Assembly: GCA_016928495.1 (NCBI GenBank)
Contig: JAFGKQ010000113.1
Location: 1 to 7,132, forward strand
Reading direction: 5' to 3'
DNA from: Candidatus Fermentibacterales bacterium
GTDB taxonomy: Bacteria > Fermentibacterota > Fermentibacteria > Fermentibacterales > JAFGKQ01
DNA length: 7,132 nucleotides
Within the stretch, counting starts at the first letter, position 1. The number at the start of each line of letters is the position of its first letter. The position numbers and the translations under genes were made by a program. Under the pieces are notes generated by a model, which saw nothing but the letters and a program-made list of their open reading frames with translations, was not told the origin of the DNA and did no database searches. Below, piece by piece: positions 1,110-7,132 of this stretch.

Positions 1110-1128
1110 CAACTACGTCCCCGAATGT

Positions 1129-1133
1129 GAAGG
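1129..1133 (+). promoter_or_regulatory. SD-like GAAGG that favours the ATG start at 1139
   Basis: GAAGG lies 5 bases before ATG 1139. The alternative in-frame GTG at 1127 has no SD-like sequence in front of it (AACTACGTCCCCGAAT). This supports the shorter protein by four residues. The signal is modest, so GTG 1127 remains possible. Confidence 0.45.
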
Positions 1134-1138
1134 CCGGG

Positions 1139-3637
1139 ATGAGACAGAGCCTCTTCGTTGCGCTTTGCGTGATAGTCTCGGTGGTCGTCCTGCTGAACCT
1201 CTCCTGGGAGGTCGGCAAGGCCTGGACCTTCGCCAACATGGGCGACATGTGGAGTCTCATCTGGCTTACCGAGGAACCGGAGGCGGCCTTTGCCGAGGTC
1301 GACCTGCAAGACTTCCCGGCGCCGCCCTACCCCGCTGCCGGGGACACGCTGATAGAAGTAGCCGGGCTTCCCGCGACGGTGGACAACTACTTCAGCATCT
1401 TCACGCCGCGCACGGAGCCGGGCCTCGAGGTCCCGATAAGATTCAGGAGCGGCGGGGAGGTCTTCGAGACCGTCATCGTCACCAGGTCCATCCCCTTCGA
1501 GAACGGGCTGCAGATACTGATCCTGACCGCGCTTCGAATCCCCATCGCCCTGGCTCTGCTGTTCATCGCCATATACGGCGCCGTGAGGCGCCCCGGCTCG
1601 ATCCCGGTGCGGTACCTGTCGCTGTTCTGCCTGGCGATCGGAGCCCAGGTCGGGGGAGGCATCGCTCTGGCCCCCAGCTACGCCATGTTCCAGCTTCCGT
1701 ACTTCATCACGTGGAGCGTCGCGTTCCTCGCCTCGGCGCAGCCTGCCGCCTGGCTGGCTCTCAACCTCCACTTCCCGGTCGAGCACAGCATCGTGAACCG
1801 CAGGCGGAAGCTCGTAGGAACGGTCCTGCTGGCGATTCCCGTGCTGCACTTCACTGCCGACAGGCTGTTCTTCGATAGCCGCATCAGCCCGCTCAGCGCC
1901 CCGGTCAGCATCGTTCTGATCAGTCTGGGCTTCCTCGTCCTCGTCCGCAATCACCACAAGGCTGGCTCCTTCCTCGAGGAGAGGCAGACCAGGCTGATGC
2001 TGCTTGGGGTGACCCCGTCCATGGTGATCGGCCTGGGCCTCACTCTGTGCGTTTCGATAGCTACCGACTGGTTCGTGTCCATAGCGTTCATTACGCGCAT
2101 GTACATGTTCATCCTTCTCTTCTTCGCATATCTCCTCGTTCCTCTCTGCATAGGTCAGGCCATCAGGCGCTACCGGCTTCTCGAGCTGGAGGCCAGGCTG
2201 CGGCGCGGCACCAGGTTCTTCGTGGTGAACCTGCTGCTGATCGGGGTGATGCTGGGCTCCATCTACGTGATCGCCCACTTCGTCCTGGACAGCCTGGGAG
2301 TCCAGAGCCGGACGCCGACCCTCGTGGTCGGCCTGGTGATGGCTCTGGGGTTCGTACCGGGACAGAGGAAGCTCAGAAGAGCACTCGAGAGCCGGTTCTA
2401 CCCGGAGAAGGCCAGGCTCAGGGAGCTCCTTCGGGACTTCCTGCGGACCAGCCTGGCGACCGCAGACTCCGGCAGCTTCTGGGAGCAGCTCGAGCAGAAG
2501 CTGGAGGACGGTCTGGGCACCGAGCGCATACTGCCGGTCCTCAGGCGCCCGGGGTGCGACCAGCTCATGGTCGAGGGAATCGACCAAGCGCCTTTCCGCG
2601 AAGGTGACGAGCTGGTCAGCAGGCTCCGGACCGGCGGGCACCCCATGCTGGTCGACGAGTTGCTGGCAAGCGGCAAGGTCGAAGTGACGGGGGATCAGCG
2701 AGACTGGCTCACTAGCAGCGGAAGCGCGATCCTGCTGCCGCTCCGGACATCATCGGGTCTCGAGGGCTTCCTCGCTCTGGGCAGGAAGACCAGCGAGGAG
2801 GACTACTCCGCCGAGGAGCTCGAGCTCCTGCAGTCGCTGTCATCGCAGGTTGCGCTGGTGACCGAGAACCTGGAGCTGCTGGAGGAGAAGATCCAGAAGG
2901 AGAGGCTCGACCAGCAGCTCGAGGTTGCCAGGTCGATCCAGGAGAGGCTCCTGCCTGACCATTCGCCCAGGACCCCCGGTCTCAGGGTCGAAGCGCTTAT
3001 CCGCTTCTGCCTGGAGGTGGCGGGTGACTACTACGACGTGCTCACTCTCGAGGACGGCAGGACGGTGGTGGCCATCGGCGATGTGTCGGGCAAGGGGGTC
3101 GGCCCCGCCCTTCTCATGGCCAATCTCCAGGCGTCCCTTCGGACGACCCAGGAGATCGGCGTGGAGCTGGCGGAGTCGGTGGCCAGGATCAACAGGCTGG
3201 TCTACGAGAACACGCCGACAGACATGTTCATCACTTTCTTCGTGATGGTGTTCGATCCGGTCAACCGCACCGTCAGGTACGTCAATGCGGGCCACGATTG
3301 GCCGATGCTGTTCCACGCTGACGGCAGGATGGAGCAGCTGTCGACTGGAGGCATGGTCCTGGGAGTGGTGGGCGACGAGACCTATTCCGCCGGTGAGGCT
3401 GCCTTCGGCGATGGGGACACGCTGATCCTCTACACCGACGGGGTTACCGAGGCCATGGACCAGGAGGAGAAGGAGTTCGGTCTGGGGCGGCTCGCGGAGG
3501 TGGTGAGGGAGTGCTCCGACAGGCCTCCGAGCGAGTTACTGGAGGAGATCGAGAGAAGGGTGATCCTCTTTCACGGTGGAGACGATCTCTACGACGACTT
3601 CACCATCATCGCCATCAGGCCGGAGGAGGACCGATGA
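1139..3637 (+). CDS. membrane-bound PP2C/SpoIIE (RsbU-type) serine/threonine phosphatase with PDZ-like sensor segment and GAF-like region
   Basis: Role: a metal-dependent protein phosphatase, by family likely to dephosphorylate an anti-sigma-factor antagonist or similar switch protein in response to an envelope or cytoplasmic signal. Numbering from ATG 1139 (832 aa): a first membrane helix at about 4-20; an extracytoplasmic stretch to about 120 with a PDZ-like core (AGDTLIEVAGLPATVDNYF); then roughly eight or nine hydrophobic helices to about 406. A GAF-like region spans about 425-575 (AILLPLRTSSGLEGFLALG), followed by a charged helical linker to about 604 (KERLDQQLEVARSIQERLLP). The SpoIIE domain fills about 615-830. 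Metal-binding acids are visible: Asp630 in AGDYYDV, Asp648 in GDVSGKG, Asp767 in YTDGVTEA and Asp819/820 in DDFTIIAI, with the NAGHDWP motif between them. The usual GGDYYD is AGDYYD here. The stop overlaps the next gene's ATG, so the two are probably translated together. No kinase, anti-sigma factor or STAS partner is in the window. Confidence 0.88.
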   Translation: MRQSLFVALCVIVSVVVLLNLSWEVGKAWTFANMGDMWSLIWLTEEPEAAFAEVDLQDFPAPPYPAAGDTLIEVAGLPATVDNYFSIFTPRTEPGLEVPIRFRSGGEVFETVIVTRSIPFENGLQILILTALRIPIALALLFIAIYGAVRRPGSIPVRYLSLFCLAIGAQVGGGIALAPSYAMFQLPYFITWSVAFLASAQPAAWLALNLHFPVEHSIVNRRRKLVGTVLLAIPVLHFTADRLFFDSRISPLSAPVSIVLISLGFLVLVRNHHKAGSFLEERQTRLMLLGVTPSMVIGLGLTLCVSIATDWFVSIAFITRMYMFILLFFAYLLVPLCIGQAIRRYRLLELEARLRRGTRFFVVNLLLIGVMLGSIYVIAHFVLDSLGVQSRTPTLVVGLVMALGFVPGQRKLRRALESRFYPEKARLRELLRDFLRTSLATADSGSFWEQLEQKLEDGLGTERILPVLRRPGCDQLMVEGIDQAPFREGDELVSRLRTGGHPMLVDELLASGKVEVTGDQRDWLTSSGSAILLPLRTSSGLEGFLALGRKTSEEDYSAEELELLQSLSSQVALVTENLELLEEKIQKERLDQQLEVARSIQERLLPDHSPRTPGLRVEALIRFCLEVAGDYYDVLTLEDGRTVVAIGDVSGKGVGPALLMANLQASLRTTQEIGVELAESVARINRLVYENTPTDMFITFFVMVFDPVNRTVRYVNAGHDWPMLFHADGRMEQLSTGGMVLGVVGDETYSAGEAAFGDGDTLILYTDGVTEAMDQEEKEFGLGRLAEVVRECSDRPPSELLEEIERRVILFHGGDDLYDDFTIIAIRPEEDR
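3622..3629 (+). promoter_or_regulatory. strong ribosome binding site GGAGGAGG for the beta-barrel gene
   Basis: GGAGGAGG sits 4 bases before ATG 3634, inside the last codons of the phosphatase gene (Glu-Glu-Asp-Arg end). With the ATGA stop/start overlap at 3634-3637 it fixes the start of the downstream gene and suggests translational coupling. Confidence 0.75.
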
Positions 3638-4383
3638 GATCGACCGGAGCAGTGATCCTGACGATCGGGATGCTGACGATGCCTTCCCCTCGCGCTTCAT
3701 CGGGGGCCGAGTGGTTCCTGGACCTCGAGTCGGGTGGGGCTTTCCCGGGCTACAACGATGTCAGGGTGCCGGGCGAGACCGGCACGGACATTTCTGTCAC
3801 CGGTGATCTCGAAACGGATGCAGCCGTCTTCTTCAGGGCCAGAGGCGGCGTAACTGTGGGGGATAGGCACACCCTGAGCGCTCTTGTTGCCCCGTTGACC
3901 CTGGAAGCCTCTGGATCCGTGGGATTCCCGGTGCTCTTCGGGGACGTGGAGTTCGACGCCGCGACCCCTCTGGAGGCGACCTACCGCTTCGACTCCTATC
4001 GCATCAGCTACAGCTACCGCTTCATCGACAACGGCAGCTTGCGGCTCGATGCGGGCCTGACCGCCAAGATCCGCGACGCGGAGATCCGGCTGGAGGGTGG
4101 GGGCCAGACCTCGAGCACAGCCAACACGGGCTTCGTTCCGCTCATACGCTTCGCGCTGGCATGGCGAGTCGGCCCCTCTGTCGAAGTGCTTCTCGACGGG
4201 GACGCGCTTGTGGGGCCCCAGGGCAGGGCGGAGGACGTCTTCGCCGGCGTGGGTGTGGGCCTGTGTCCCCGCCTGGTTCTCAGGGCAGGCTACAGGCTGC
4301 TCGAAGGGGGCGCGGACGTGGAGCAGGTCTACAACTTCACCATGGTCAACTACGCTGCGGTGGGGATCACGGCGATGCTGTAG
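3634..4383 (+). CDS. exported outer-membrane beta-barrel-like protein, function unknown
   Basis: I do not recognise a named family. The 249-residue product starts with a short signal peptide: Arg2, a hydrophobic stretch at about 5-16 (GAVILTIGMLTM), then a polar segment with a plausible cleavage after Ala25 (SGA|EW). The rest has no hydrophobic helix but many alternating amphipathic strands ending at turns, for example TYRFDSYRISYSYRF, LRLDAGLTAKIRDAEIRL, VPLIRFALAWRV, SVEVLLDGDALV and LVLRAGYRLLEGG. This is the look of a small 8- to 10-strand outer-membrane barrel. The last strand (VNYAAVGITAML) ends in Leu rather than the classical aromatic residue. The frame could extend upstream to 3511, but that part is inside the phosphatase gene and lacks a signal peptide; the SD at 3622-3629 and the ATGA overlap select ATG 3634. 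Its 3' end overlaps the convergent activator gene by 17 bp. Being coupled to a signalling phosphatase suggests a linked envelope function, which is inference. Confidence 0.72.
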   Translation: MRSTGAVILTIGMLTMPSPRASSGAEWFLDLESGGAFPGYNDVRVPGETGTDISVTGDLETDAAVFFRARGGVTVGDRHTLSALVAPLTLEASGSVGFPVLFGDVEFDAATPLEATYRFDSYRISYSYRFIDNGSLRLDAGLTAKIRDAEIRLEGGGQTSSTANTGFVPLIRFALAWRVGPSVEVLLDGDALVGPQGRAEDVFAGVGVGLCPRLVLRAGYRLLEGGADVEQVYNFTMVNYAAVGITAML

Positions 4384-5158
4384 TGCTGCCTCTTGCCGCT
4401 TCTGCGGCGATTATGGCAGCGCCCAGTGCTCCCGTGATCTGAGGATCGTAGGGGATGGAGACCTCGAGACCCGTCTCCTCTCCGAGAGCCGCGGCAACGG
4501 CCTCGGTCCTGGCCACCCCTCCGGTGAACACCAGTCGGGGCCTGATCTGCGCTCGCCCCGCCATCGAGATCGTTCTCCTCGCTATTGCCCGGAATACCCC
4601 GTTGAGGATCGTCGGGACCGGCGTGCCTCCCTGAAGGAGGCCTACAAGCTCGCTCTCCGCGAACACTGCGCACATGGACGAGATGTCGACGCTTCCTTGG
4701 TGCCCCCTGACCATGTCGTTCAGGCTCGGCAAGTCGGTACCGACGGTGTGTGCGACCATCTCTACGAACCGTCCGGTTCCGGCGGCGCAGCGATCGTTCA
4801 TGACGAAGTCGACCACTCGGCCCGAGTCGTCGAGGATGATCAGCTTGGAATCCTGACCCCCGATGTCCACAACTGTCCTCGCATCGGGGAACAGGTAGAG
4901 GACACCCCTTCCGTGGCACATTATCTCGGAGACGGCCCTGTCGGACTCCGCGAAGTAGTTCCGTCCATAGCCCGTGGAGACCGTGGCGGCGAGTTCGCTC
5001 CTCCGGATGCCTGCAGCGTCCAAGACCCTGTGGAACAGGCCTCTTGCCGACTCCCTGGGCGAGGTGCCGCTGTCGGCCACTGCCGATTCCACGACCTGCG
5101 CGCCGTCGAACAGCACGACCTCCGTGGACCTTGCACCGATGTCCACTCCGCAGTACAT
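4367..5158 (-). CDS. ASKHA-family activator ATPase (HgdC/BcrAD/YjiL type) for the adjacent iron-sulfur enzyme
   Basis: Role: a homodimeric [4Fe-4S] activator of the BadF/BadG/BcrA/BcrD family. Members couple ATP hydrolysis to single low-potential electron transfer into a 2-hydroxyacyl-CoA dehydratase, benzoyl-CoA reductase or double-cubane partner. The 263 residues show the whole family pattern: phosphate-1 loop GVDIGARSTEVVL (4-16), STGYGR (61-66), CHGRGVLYLFP (81-91), phosphate-2 loop DIGGQDSK (98-105), NDRCAAGTGRF (121-131), SMCAVFAESE (161-170) and the adenosine loop FTGGVA (211-216). Cys124 and Cys163 correspond to the two cysteines per monomer that hold the bridging cluster. Length is normal for a stand-alone activator (about 255-270 aa). 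It starts at ATG 5158, 2 bases after the stop of the upstream partner gene, so the pair form an operon; only a poor SD-like GGAA lies upstream, suggesting coupled translation. It ends with TGA at 4367-4369 and overlaps the convergent beta-barrel gene. Confidence 0.9.
   Translation of the reverse strand: MYCGVDIGARSTEVVLFDGAQVVESAVADSGTSPRESARGLFHRVLDAAGIRRSELAATVSTGYGRNYFAESDRAVSEIMCHGRGVLYLFPDARTVVDIGGQDSKLIILDDSGRVVDFVMNDRCAAGTGRFVEMVAHTVGTDLPSLNDMVRGHQGSVDISSMCAVFAESELVGLLQGGTPVPTILNGVFRAIARRTISMAGRAQIRPRLVFTGGVARTEAVAAALGEETGLEVSIPYDPQITGALGAAIIAAEAARGSTTASP
4385..4420. terminator. two-tier inverted repeat at the convergent gene junction, possible U-tail-less terminator
   Basis: One base after the beta-barrel stop, GCTGCC (4385-4390) pairs exactly with GGCAGC (4415-4420). 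Nested inside, GCCGC (4395-4399) pairs with GCGGC (4404-4408) over the loop TTCT. No T-run follows on either strand, so a classical intrinsic terminator is not shown. The repeat also lies inside codons 247-258 of the activator gene, where Ala-rich coding could create such symmetry by chance. Confidence 0.3.
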
Positions 5159-5160
5159 GT

Positions 5161-7132
5161 CTAGACCATTTCCAGCATCGTCTGAATCCTGATGAGAAGC
5201 CGCTCTCTGTCGGAGTCCGAGTAGTCTGTCTCTATCTTCAGGAAGGGTATTCCAAGGTCTTCCTTGATGTGTCTCTCGATAGCGTACGATTCGACGTTAT
5301 ACGTGTGACAGGCGTGCCAGACAAGATCAACCACCGCCTGCACTCCGAAGTCCCTGAGCAGCCGGTCCTGGAGCTCTATTCGTCCCCTGTTCGGCGTCAT
5401 GCACGAGCAGGGGATCCTGAAGTGCCTACGGGCTATGGCCACCAGAGGTGCCTCGTGCTCGCATACCAGCTCGTCCAGAGGCTTCCAGCCGGAGCAGGTC
5501 TCCTGGACGACCACCACACCGCCGCACTGCTCGATGAGCTCTATTACCTTCATGGTGCCTTCCGCCATGGGGCAGCCGGAGACCATGATCCTGGGGACGC
5601 CGGGCGCGCACACGCTCGTGCCTCTCCTCTTCCTGCTGCGAACGGTCTCGATGGAGGACCGGAGCATTCCCAGGTTCGAGTCGAGGCCCGAAACCCTGTA
5701 GCGAAGCCTCGCCAGATCCAGACCGCTCACCACGGGAGGATCCTCGGCACCCAGCATCAGCGCTTCCCTCAGGAGGCTCCGCTCGGCGTTCATTCGCGCG
5801 ATCCCGCTCCTGAGGTCCTCTTCGGTGATCTCTCTGGAGAAGACCTCCTCCAGGCGAGCTTTCAGCTTCTCGACCTCCGACAGCCAGTGTGAGAAGGCCT
5901 CGCTCTCCTCGACCTTCTGCGTGAGCTCGAGTATGTGCTGCGGCCTGCGGCCGGCGATCAGTTCGTACATCTTCTTCTTGCCATCGCAGGTGGTCTCGGC
6001 AACGATCAGGTCCGACACGACGAAGAAGGGGCACCTGGCTGTGAGGATGTACCCGAACGACGACTTGATCAGCGGGCAGAGGTTAGAGGGAAGAACCGTC
6101 TCGGCCGCCGGTATGGTCCGCCTGCTCGCTCCGCAGAGGCATACCGGGAGGGCCCCGGCAGCCAGTATCAGGTCCCGGGGGGTGAACTCGCAGTAGATCC
6201 CGACCACTCCACGGCCCCTGCGCTTCTCTGCCCTGATTCCGTCCACCTCCCAGGCCATGGAGTTCCTGAAGTACTCCAGAGGGTCGCAGGAGCCGGATGA
6301 GGGGCCGGCGCCCTCCCGGGCGCCCTGGACCGCGACGGTGGAGCGACGCTTGTCCCTGAGTAGCTGCATGAAGCTCTGCATCCTGTTCACGACCTGCTCG
6401 CTGTGGCGCCCGGGGGAGAAGGGCACGTCGAAGGAGAGAACCGGCAGCCCGAGCTCGCGCTGGACGAGTGCGGAGATCGCCTTCTCCTCCCACGGGCAGT
6501 GGCTCGCGCCATAGATGCCGGAGATGACAACGCCCTCGGCCCCGAACTTCCGGGCCCCCTCCACCACCCTCCGCGCCTTGAAGAAGGTCGATCCGAGCAT
6601 GGGATCGTCCATGCAGTTCTCGGCCACTGCATCCAACACCGGCCTGTCGGTCGAGAGGGGCAGGAAGGAGTGCGTTATGAGGTAGTCCGTGCCGGCAACG
6701 CATCCCCCCATGTCCTCGAGAAGCGTCAGCAGGGCCGCGTCTGTGGGCGGTGTCACCCAGAAGACTCGAAGGGGATCCGGAGAGAGAGGGGACTCGTTTC
6801 TCTCGAGCCGTCTCTGCGCGGTTTCCACGAGATCGTCCAGGACCCTCAGGGACTCCTCGGGCTCCGAGCAGGTGTGTATGCCCGTGAACTCCGCCAGGAA
6901 CATCTCCAGCCCGGGAAGTGGCGGCCGCCTCGAGGAGTAGACCATGTCCCTCAGCCCCCGGATCCTGCCCCGCAGGTCATTGAAGAGCGCCCTGCTGCGC
7001 GACAGCATCTCCTCGTCGACGCCGGCTCCCGTGAGCTGCTCGAGCTTCCTGACCACGCCTTGCAGCTGAGTCTTCAGGAACTCCACCGCCGAGAGCTGGT
7101 AGGGTGTTCCCCCGTGCGGAGTGACCGAGTAC
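5161..7132 (-). CDS. tandem two-domain 2-hydroxyacyl-CoA dehydratase / double-cubane cluster (HgdB/BcrC/YjiM)-type reductase, N-terminus beyond the window
   Basis: Role: a radical or low-potential iron-sulfur reductase/dehydratase driven by the adjacent activator; substrate unknown. The frame is open to the right edge. The first available start is GTG 7086 (641 aa, numbering used here), but it has no SD, and 15 further sense codons (YSVTPHGGTPYQLSA) precede it. Residues 1-245 are the C-terminal part of one HgdB-type domain: a helical segment, VFWVTPPTDAALLTLLEDMGG, then LGLPVLSFDVPFSPGRHSE. Residues 246-267 are a Gly/Ser/Ala-rich linker. Residues 268-641 are a complete second domain of normal family size: GIYCEFTPRDLILAAGALPV (Cys299), LCG, SNLCPLIKSSFGY (Cys337), AETTCDGKKKMYEL (Cys367), SGCPM (Cys505), ETCSG (Cys531), IPCSCM (Cys560/562), LGIPFLKIETDYSD and IRIQTMLEMV at the end. 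The TCDGKKKMYE block is typical of double-cubane/YjiM-like members. The first domain lacks the cysteines matching Cys505, Cys531 and Cys560/562. Dehydratase, reductase or double-cubane reductase cannot be told apart from sequence. Confidence 0.85.
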   Translation of the reverse strand, partial: YSVTPHGGTPYQLSAVEFLKTQLQGVVRKLEQLTGAGVDEEMLSRSRALFNDLRGRIRGLRDMVYSSRRPPLPGLEMFLAEFTGIHTCSEPEESLRVLDDLVETAQRRLERNESPLSPDPLRVFWVTPPTDAALLTLLEDMGGCVAGTDYLITHSFLPLSTDRPVLDAVAENCMDDPMLGSTFFKARRVVEGARKFGAEGVVISGIYGASHCPWEEKAISALVQRELGLPVLSFDVPFSPGRHSEQVVNRMQSFMQLLRDKRRSTVAVQGAREGAGPSSGSCDPLEYFRNSMAWEVDGIRAEKRRGRGVVGIYCEFTPRDLILAAGALPVCLCGASRRTIPAAETVLPSNLCPLIKSSFGYILTARCPFFVVSDLIVAETTCDGKKKMYELIAGRRPQHILELTQKVEESEAFSHWLSEVEKLKARLEEVFSREITEEDLRSGIARMNAERSLLREALMLGAEDPPVVSGLDLARLRYRVSGLDSNLGMLRSSIETVRSRKRRGTSVCAPGVPRIMVSGCPMAEGTMKVIELIEQCGGVVVVQETCSGWKPLDELVCEHEAPLVAIARRHFRIPCSCMTPNRGRIELQDRLLRDFGVQAVVDLVWHACHTYNVESYAIERHIKEDLGIPFLKIETDYSDSDRERLLIRIQTMLEMV
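6307..6324. repeat. perfect 7-bp G/C hairpin in the interdomain linker of the fused reductase
   Basis: GGCGCCC (6307-6313), a TCCC loop, and GGGCGCC (6318-6324) form a perfect all-G/C stem. It encodes Gly-Ala-Arg-Glu-Gly-Ala, residues 255-260, in the linker between the two homologous domains. It could mark the fusion joint or slow the ribosome between domains; in GC-rich coding DNA chance is also plausible. Confidence 0.4.

Follow-up and report, generated by a model that had tools for sequence, protein, structure and literature searches.

A fused double-cubane reductase gene of Candidatus Fermentibacterota is part of a broader module, apparently undescribed and linked to selenium

Known double-cubane-cluster proteins (DCCPs) are homodimers of one gene product, whereas the gene studied here joins a DCCP to a diverged paralogue in a single chain. 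What does such a chain look like, is the joining genuine, and which system does it serve? We addressed these questions in a window of 7,132 bases, which is one whole contig (G000:C202) of a genome whose nearest named relatives are Candidatus Fermentibacterota. An earlier note on this DNA had proposed a self-contained, ATP-driven reductase or dehydratase in which a heterodimer is built into one polypeptide.

A DCCP domain fused to a diverged HgdB-type paralogue

The fused gene, referred to here as B::C, occupies 5161..7131 on the minus strand, where 656 codons are visible in one open frame that contains no internal stop codon. Because the window is a whole contig that ends at this point, the gene lacks its 5' part. 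Complete B::C relatives are about 865 amino acids long and hold approximately 210 residues beyond the visible frame; the GTG at 7086 is therefore not the true start. In these relatives, the missing residues account for the greater part of the first alpha/beta domain in the N half (B), which is why only a "C-terminal half-domain" of that half had been noticed before.

The repetition of this half-domain within one chain is real. The HGD-D profile (PF06050, gathering cut-off 28.4 bits) matched each half separately above its cut-off, covering the complete domain in the C half (profile positions 1-341 at 5167-6192, 323.5 bits) and positions 92-341 in the N half (6361-7095, 100.8 bits, 1.1e-28), where the match starts at position 92 because the contig stops there. 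The two halves also aligned with each other in BLASTP (E=1e-6, 24% identity over 262 columns) and in a profile-profile comparison with hhalign (probability 99.1%), and the duplication includes the helical segment ahead of the half-domain, which had likewise been described as duplicated. On the minus strand, the visible chain consists of the C-terminal part of B (6343..7131), assigned with PF06050 and by alignment with B genes of other phyla, a linker of residues 264-287 (6271..6342) and the C half (5164..6270).

The dedicated activator seen by the earlier note is indeed present: an activase gene of the BadF/BadG/BcrA/BcrD ATPase type (4367..5158, minus strand; PF01869, 1.2e-51) starts 2 bases past the B::C stop codon and passes the acyl-CoA dehydratase activase model TIGR00241 (234.6 bits against a cut-off of 125.4). 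Its Cys124 and Cys163 are candidate [4Fe-4S] ligands, a role that we presume from HgdC-type activators. Elsewhere in the window, the plus strand encodes, at 3-1010, the C-terminal portion of a gingipain-like protein (peptidase C25) that carries an Ig domain of the FlgD type and a sorting signal for type IX secretion. The gene at 1127-3637, unrelated and on the strand opposite to B::C, probably encodes a membrane protein; its domains are GAF and a SpoIIE-type phosphatase.

A frameshift or assembly error that joined two normal subunit genes had been named as an outcome that would undo the fusion. We rejected this explanation, because 12 further genomes of this order have a homologue (61-66% identical) that encodes the two halves in a single unbroken frame, and the linkers of these one-frame relatives have diverged freely. 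Outside the window's group and some Nitrospirota, B and C are separate genes, in the order B then C in Lentisphaerota and C, X, B in Planctomycetota, where X is a third paralogue described below. One member of the window's own order, G011, also has B and C as separate genes, with a 4-base overlap. Since the Nitrospirota sequences with B::C adjoin those of Fermentibacterota in the tree (support 99), a single origin of the fusion, followed by a later split in G011, is possible. A different fusion is found in Caldisericota, in which the activase is joined to C (L078 3356-5695, L086 3780-6119 and L061).

The C half is a DCCP, as judged by family model, structural match and cluster ligands. The whole fused protein reached 456.9 bits against the equivalog model NF040772 (cut-off 350 bits), with its best stretch at residues 299-656, and the C part of the Nitrospirota locus L037 reached 451.3 bits by itself. 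The predicted model of a complete relative, L040, matched PDB 6eno with a Z-score of 41.6 at 32% identity, and a relationship of the C half to 6eno is also evident from sequence. Furthermore, all six [8Fe-9S] ligands of BzdN, as listed in PMC11971306, align to cysteines of the window C half. In the numbering of the visible frame, with all codons on the minus strand, these are Cys314 (6190..6192, aligned to BzdN Cys36), Cys352 (6076..6078, Cys73), Cys382 (5986..5988, Cys100), Cys546 (5494..5496, Cys263), Cys577 (5401..5403, Cys293) and Cys608 (5308..5310, Cys327). At five of the six positions, each of the 16 aligned C sequences, or each one that extends over the position, has cysteine; at the remaining one, 12 of 15 do. 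C-type proteins hold an [8Fe-9S] cluster, which would also occupy the C half here. The C half thus resembles the known DCCPs (NF040772; PDB 6eno, 7yyl, 7yzm) in sequence, predicted fold, six Cys ligands and a BadF/HgdC-type activase.

The other half is different. Based on its predicted structure, B is a diverged HgdB-type paralogue with the same fold as C but without the six-Cys set. The earlier note would have given up its reading had the first half failed to match HgdB-like profiles; B matches both HGD-D and known folds. The B-half model of L040 (pLDDT 91.4) gave Z-scores of 35.0 to BzdN, 34.4 to HadB, 33.5 to HadC and 33.3 to DCCP, all within a range of 30-35 that includes BzdO, and these near ties indicate no clear preference of B for alpha- or beta-subunit chains. 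In complete homologues, which cover the part of B that lies beyond the window, the six-Cys ligand set is absent. Five cysteines are conserved (Cys125, 146, 175, 298 and 423 in L040 numbering), of which only Cys146 and Cys175 fall on standard ligand positions, namely 2 and 3; positions 1, 4 and 5 are lost, and Cys423, in the GASH-C motif, is displaced by two to three residues beyond the sixth. The window B half itself holds the conserved HTCS (Cys88) and GASHC (Cys212) motifs. By analogy with BzdO, a three-cysteine [4Fe-4S] site in B is plausible.

It is reasonable to speak of a heterodimer in one chain, as the earlier note did, inasmuch as two HgdB-type subunits share a polypeptide next to an activase gene; its two members are, however, unlike, with only C carrying the six cysteines. 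B and C would pair within the chain, although a fused-chain model of middling confidence (pLDDT 70.7, pTM 0.53) did not resolve their interface. Alignment A5, which combined fused, B and C sequences, placed the B rows wrongly on C and was dropped.

The conserved module and its selenium gene neighborhood

We further analyzed the genes that accompany B and C. A conserved module comprising a methyltransferase (MT), the third HgdB paralogue X, B, C and the activase was found in ten phyla in differing orders. In Fermentibacterota, Nitrospirota and Lentisphaerota, B is immediately preceded by MT and X, and the same genes occur in other orders in Planctomycetota, Myxococcota, Omnitrophota, Verrucomicrobiota, Hydrogenedentota, Caldisericota and an actinomycete MAG. 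In nearly every relative of the fused gene with upstream sequence, X directly precedes it, with a SAM methyltransferase before X. The window contig ends before the expected position of X and MT, and the description of the reductase as self-contained therefore does not hold. The window's own genome, which is approximately 81% complete and fragmented, yielded neither X nor the N-terminal part of B nor a complete SelA. Compared with known DCCPs, the relatives described here thus add a third paralogue and a methyltransferase.

X scores above the HGD-D cut-off and keeps cysteines 1, 2, 3 and 6, as well as 4 and 5 in most sequences. In the Nitrospirota locus L034, X contains a proline-rich insertion with the near-repeat VIDEDYTPPLP / VIDEDHTPPLP (columns ~346-400 of alignment A2). 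The closest families to MT, all below cut-off, are DVU_1556-family, sarcosine/dimethylglycine and arsenite methyltransferases.

To place C among its relatives, we used a tree of 104 DCCP sequences. The window C fell into a clade of 65 sequences (SH-aLRT 99) to which every locus with B belongs. Genes of the sel type (selA, selB, selD, yedF or SclA-like) were present in the loci of 23 of 64 clade members, compared with 2 of 39 DCCPs outside the clade (Fisher p 0.0003, uncorrected for kinship). This linkage, seen in several lineages, is not universal even within the clade and is partly due to shared ancestry. The gene orders concerned vary widely. The actinomycete MAG carries SelA-SelB-C-(DUF3034)-MT-X-B-Act (L048), and a Firestonebacteria MAG carries SelD-C-Act-SelA-SelB (L066). 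In Ferrimonas and Photobacterium, a cysteine-desulfurase-family protein (SclA-like, under the SclA cut-off) is followed by C, Act and YedF, and in Planctomycetota a SelD-AhpD fusion and a divergent SelA adjoin the module. Among 23 genomes with clade loci, SelA exceeded its cut-off in 19 and SelD was present in all, while SelU (selenouridine synthase), which would indicate another use of selenium, exceeded its cut-off in none.

SelD with a C-terminal AhpD-type domain, a selenophosphate synthetase fused to a thiol-redox domain, is found in Planctomycetota and Lentisphaerota and lies beside the module at L043 646-2265, L104 6896-8494 and L085 9323-11083. The DUF3034 protein of the actinomycete MAG is encoded between C and MT (L048 6174-7229).

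In the flanks of Fermentibacterota that we examined, no sel genes were found next to the module. Co-occurrence of the module with SelA within this phylum was discarded as evidence, since SelA is nearly universal there with or without the module. A connection between HGD-D proteins and selenium genes can be found in published data. For Slackia heliotrinireducens, Table 1 of Lin et al. 2015 (PMC5322559) lists HGD-D subunits and a CoA-substrate-specific enzyme activase; these, like SelA, SelB and SelD, are STRING neighbors of YedE, YedF, DUF3343 and a LysR-like gene. In its treatment of this selenium cluster, that paper gives the HGD-D proteins no role and describes no fusion and no selenocysteine (Sec) in them. 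Where a 2022 review (PMC9312934) takes up Lin et al., the proposed selenium genes are YedE, YedF, DUF3343 and LysR_Se, not the HGD-D proteins. The fused double-cubane reductase is part of a broader module that is apparently undescribed and linked to selenium.

An in-frame TGA between B and C in Nitrospirota

A search of 395 Nitrospirota genomes yielded four full-length B::C sequences. Three of them (G101, G366 and G099) have B and C in a common frame that is interrupted by exactly one TGA between the two; the sites are those of L115 (L037 5778-5780), L116 and L118 (L034 5814-5816). The fourth, G394 (L117), has no stop and carries a cysteine at the TGA site when counted from a conserved RR (RRNTS-C against RRKPG-U, RRPST-U and RRAPI-U), the one Cys example in the alignment. 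From the TGA to the Met of the conserved FRNSM, there is no ATG, GTG or TTG, and alignable sequence begins before that Met.

A hairpin with the loop GGUC starts 17 nt after each TGA. Across the three pairs of sequences, 14, 12 and 12 of its 14 bases are identical, whereas the linker bases outside it agree at only 5, 9 and 8 of 31 positions; the outermost hairpin pair varies between T-A and C-G. The Cys form in G394 has no such hairpin. Published bSECIS criteria (PMC13188914) specify a loop of 3-9 nt with a G in its first two positions, a stem of 4-16 bp, a spacing of 16-37 nt and an MFE of -7.5 or lower, and all three hairpins fall within them (loop GGUC, at least 5 bp, 17 nt, MFE -13.7, -8.0 and -18.5). 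These general criteria are also satisfied by 25-68% of shuffles of this GC-rich sequence and carry little weight by themselves, and the MFE is not below that of the shuffles (z -0.15 to -0.64). The argument for a SECIS element rests on position, loop identity and conservation; the exact hairpin arrangement occurred in 0 of 60,000 shuffles. An Rfam search of the Nitrospirota loci returned weak sub-threshold matches, none of them a SECIS. As for the Sec machinery, SelA exceeded its cut-off in G099, G101 and G366, and SelD in G099 and G101.

With only four full-length sequences, these features make a good but thin case that Nitrospirota B::C is an undescribed family of fused selenoproteins. These family names do not appear among the entries of a 2026 review on selenoproteins of prokaryotes; the predicted Sec/Cys site in the linker would, if true, add a family to it. 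Automatic gene calling splits the Nitrospirota B::C at the UGA. The window linker is homologous to the Nitrospirota linker that carries the predicted Sec or Cys, but it has no TGA, and no in-frame UGA is present anywhere in the visible window frame. One may speculate that a Sec in this flexible joint acts as a selenium or redox relay.

Proposed function and alternatives

We give about even chances to the reading that B::C is the one-chain pseudo-heterodimer of an ATP-driven double-cubane reductase module (MT, X, B, C and activase) that most likely serves selenium metabolism. In activases of known families, ATP hydrolysis lowers the potential of the electron passed to an HgdB-type partner. Here, an activase dimer would use ATP to drive an electron of low potential from its own [4Fe-4S] cluster onto the [8Fe-9S] cluster of C, and C would pass electrons on to B and/or X, where the substrate would sit. 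The methyltransferase may act on the substrate or the product. The module might, for example, reductively release selenium from an oxidized or organic form for selenophosphate and selenocysteine synthesis, and this role may extend to the window's own lineage. A more specific version, in which three HgdB-type subunits form an ATP-driven double-cubane complex dedicated to selenium metabolism, two of them in one chain that in Nitrospirota is a selenoprotein with Sec at the joint, is put forward tentatively, at somewhat less than even chances.

Three other functions were weighed, each of which we consider improbable. The first is a classical acyl-CoA enzyme, either an (R)-2-hydroxyacyl-CoA dehydratase or a reductase of the benzoyl-CoA type, in fused form; B would bind the substrate as the alpha subunit, and C would store electrons as the beta subunit. 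The fold is that of HadB/HadC and BzdO/BzdN. The (R)-2-hydroxyisocaproyl-CoA dehydratase HadABC (PDB 3o3m, 3o3n, 3o3o) likewise combines one activase with two HgdB-type subunits, and the class I benzoyl-CoA reductase BzdNOPQ (PDB 8s02, 8s1t, 8s2r) and the 3-methylbenzoyl-CoA reductase MbdONPQ are HgdB-type heterodimers with one [8Fe-9S] subunit, which is BzdN in the former (PMC11971306), and BadF-type ATPases. B also keeps two of the three cysteine positions of such enzymes (Cys146 and Cys175 of L040), with a shifted third. However, Bzd and Mbd consist of separate chains with a defined acyl-CoA substrate and two activase subunits each, compared with one activase gene here, and B keeps different cysteines from those of HadABC. 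Scores amounted to a small fraction of the NCBIfam equivalog cut-offs for HadB (18.7 of 750 bits), HadC (69.6 of 700), bzdN (72.1 of 453.8) and bcrC (58.5 of 421). No CoA ligase, CoA transferase or beta-oxidation gene was recognized among the classified neighbors, and a neighborhood of X, a methyltransferase and sel genes is foreign to those systems. Of the earlier note's "reductase or dehydratase", the dehydratase is accordingly the least likely.

It is also doubtful that the module is a general small-molecule or detoxification reductase whose proximity to sel genes reflects only shared anaerobic genome islands. DCCPs act in vitro on acetylene, azide and hydrazine (PMC11971306), and many of them have no sel genes nearby, as this explanation would have it. 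Its difficulty lies in the repeated siting inside sel loci, with differing gene orders in several phyla, and in the Sec predicted in the same protein.

The third possibility, similarly unlikely, is the synthesis or breakdown of a methylated metalloid or organometallic compound, be it of arsenic, selenium or another element; MT would then be the key enzyme of the module, and the reductase would form or cleave the carbon-element bond. The nearest families to MT and the AhpD-type domain on SelD, which resembles the AhpD domains of metalloid-related selenoproteins, would fit this explanation, but no arsenic gene was recognized among the classified neighbors and the methyltransferase similarity is generic. 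Finally, it is very improbable that the picture stems from an artefact, either an error that joined two subunit genes or an ordinary TGA stop between genes in Nitrospirota: the separate B and C genes of most phyla and of G011 would suit it, but the single frame recurs in 12 independent genomes although their linkers have diverged, and the lack of a start codon before FRNSM, the alignable sequence ahead of its Met, the conserved hairpin amid diverged linker bases and the Cys of G394 all speak against it.

For the preferred reading, a reductase module linked to selenium, the broader interest is that double-cubane proteins hold an unusual iron-sulfur cluster, and selenium handling is a concrete, testable proposal for the natural role of one clade of them. 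The fused form may also be handy for structural work, as it provides two subunits at fixed stoichiometry.

In one fused gene (L018; G041:C7), the frame is broken within C, close to query residue 546, which is either a sequencing error or a sign of a pseudogene; the activase match at this locus is also spread over two separate frames.
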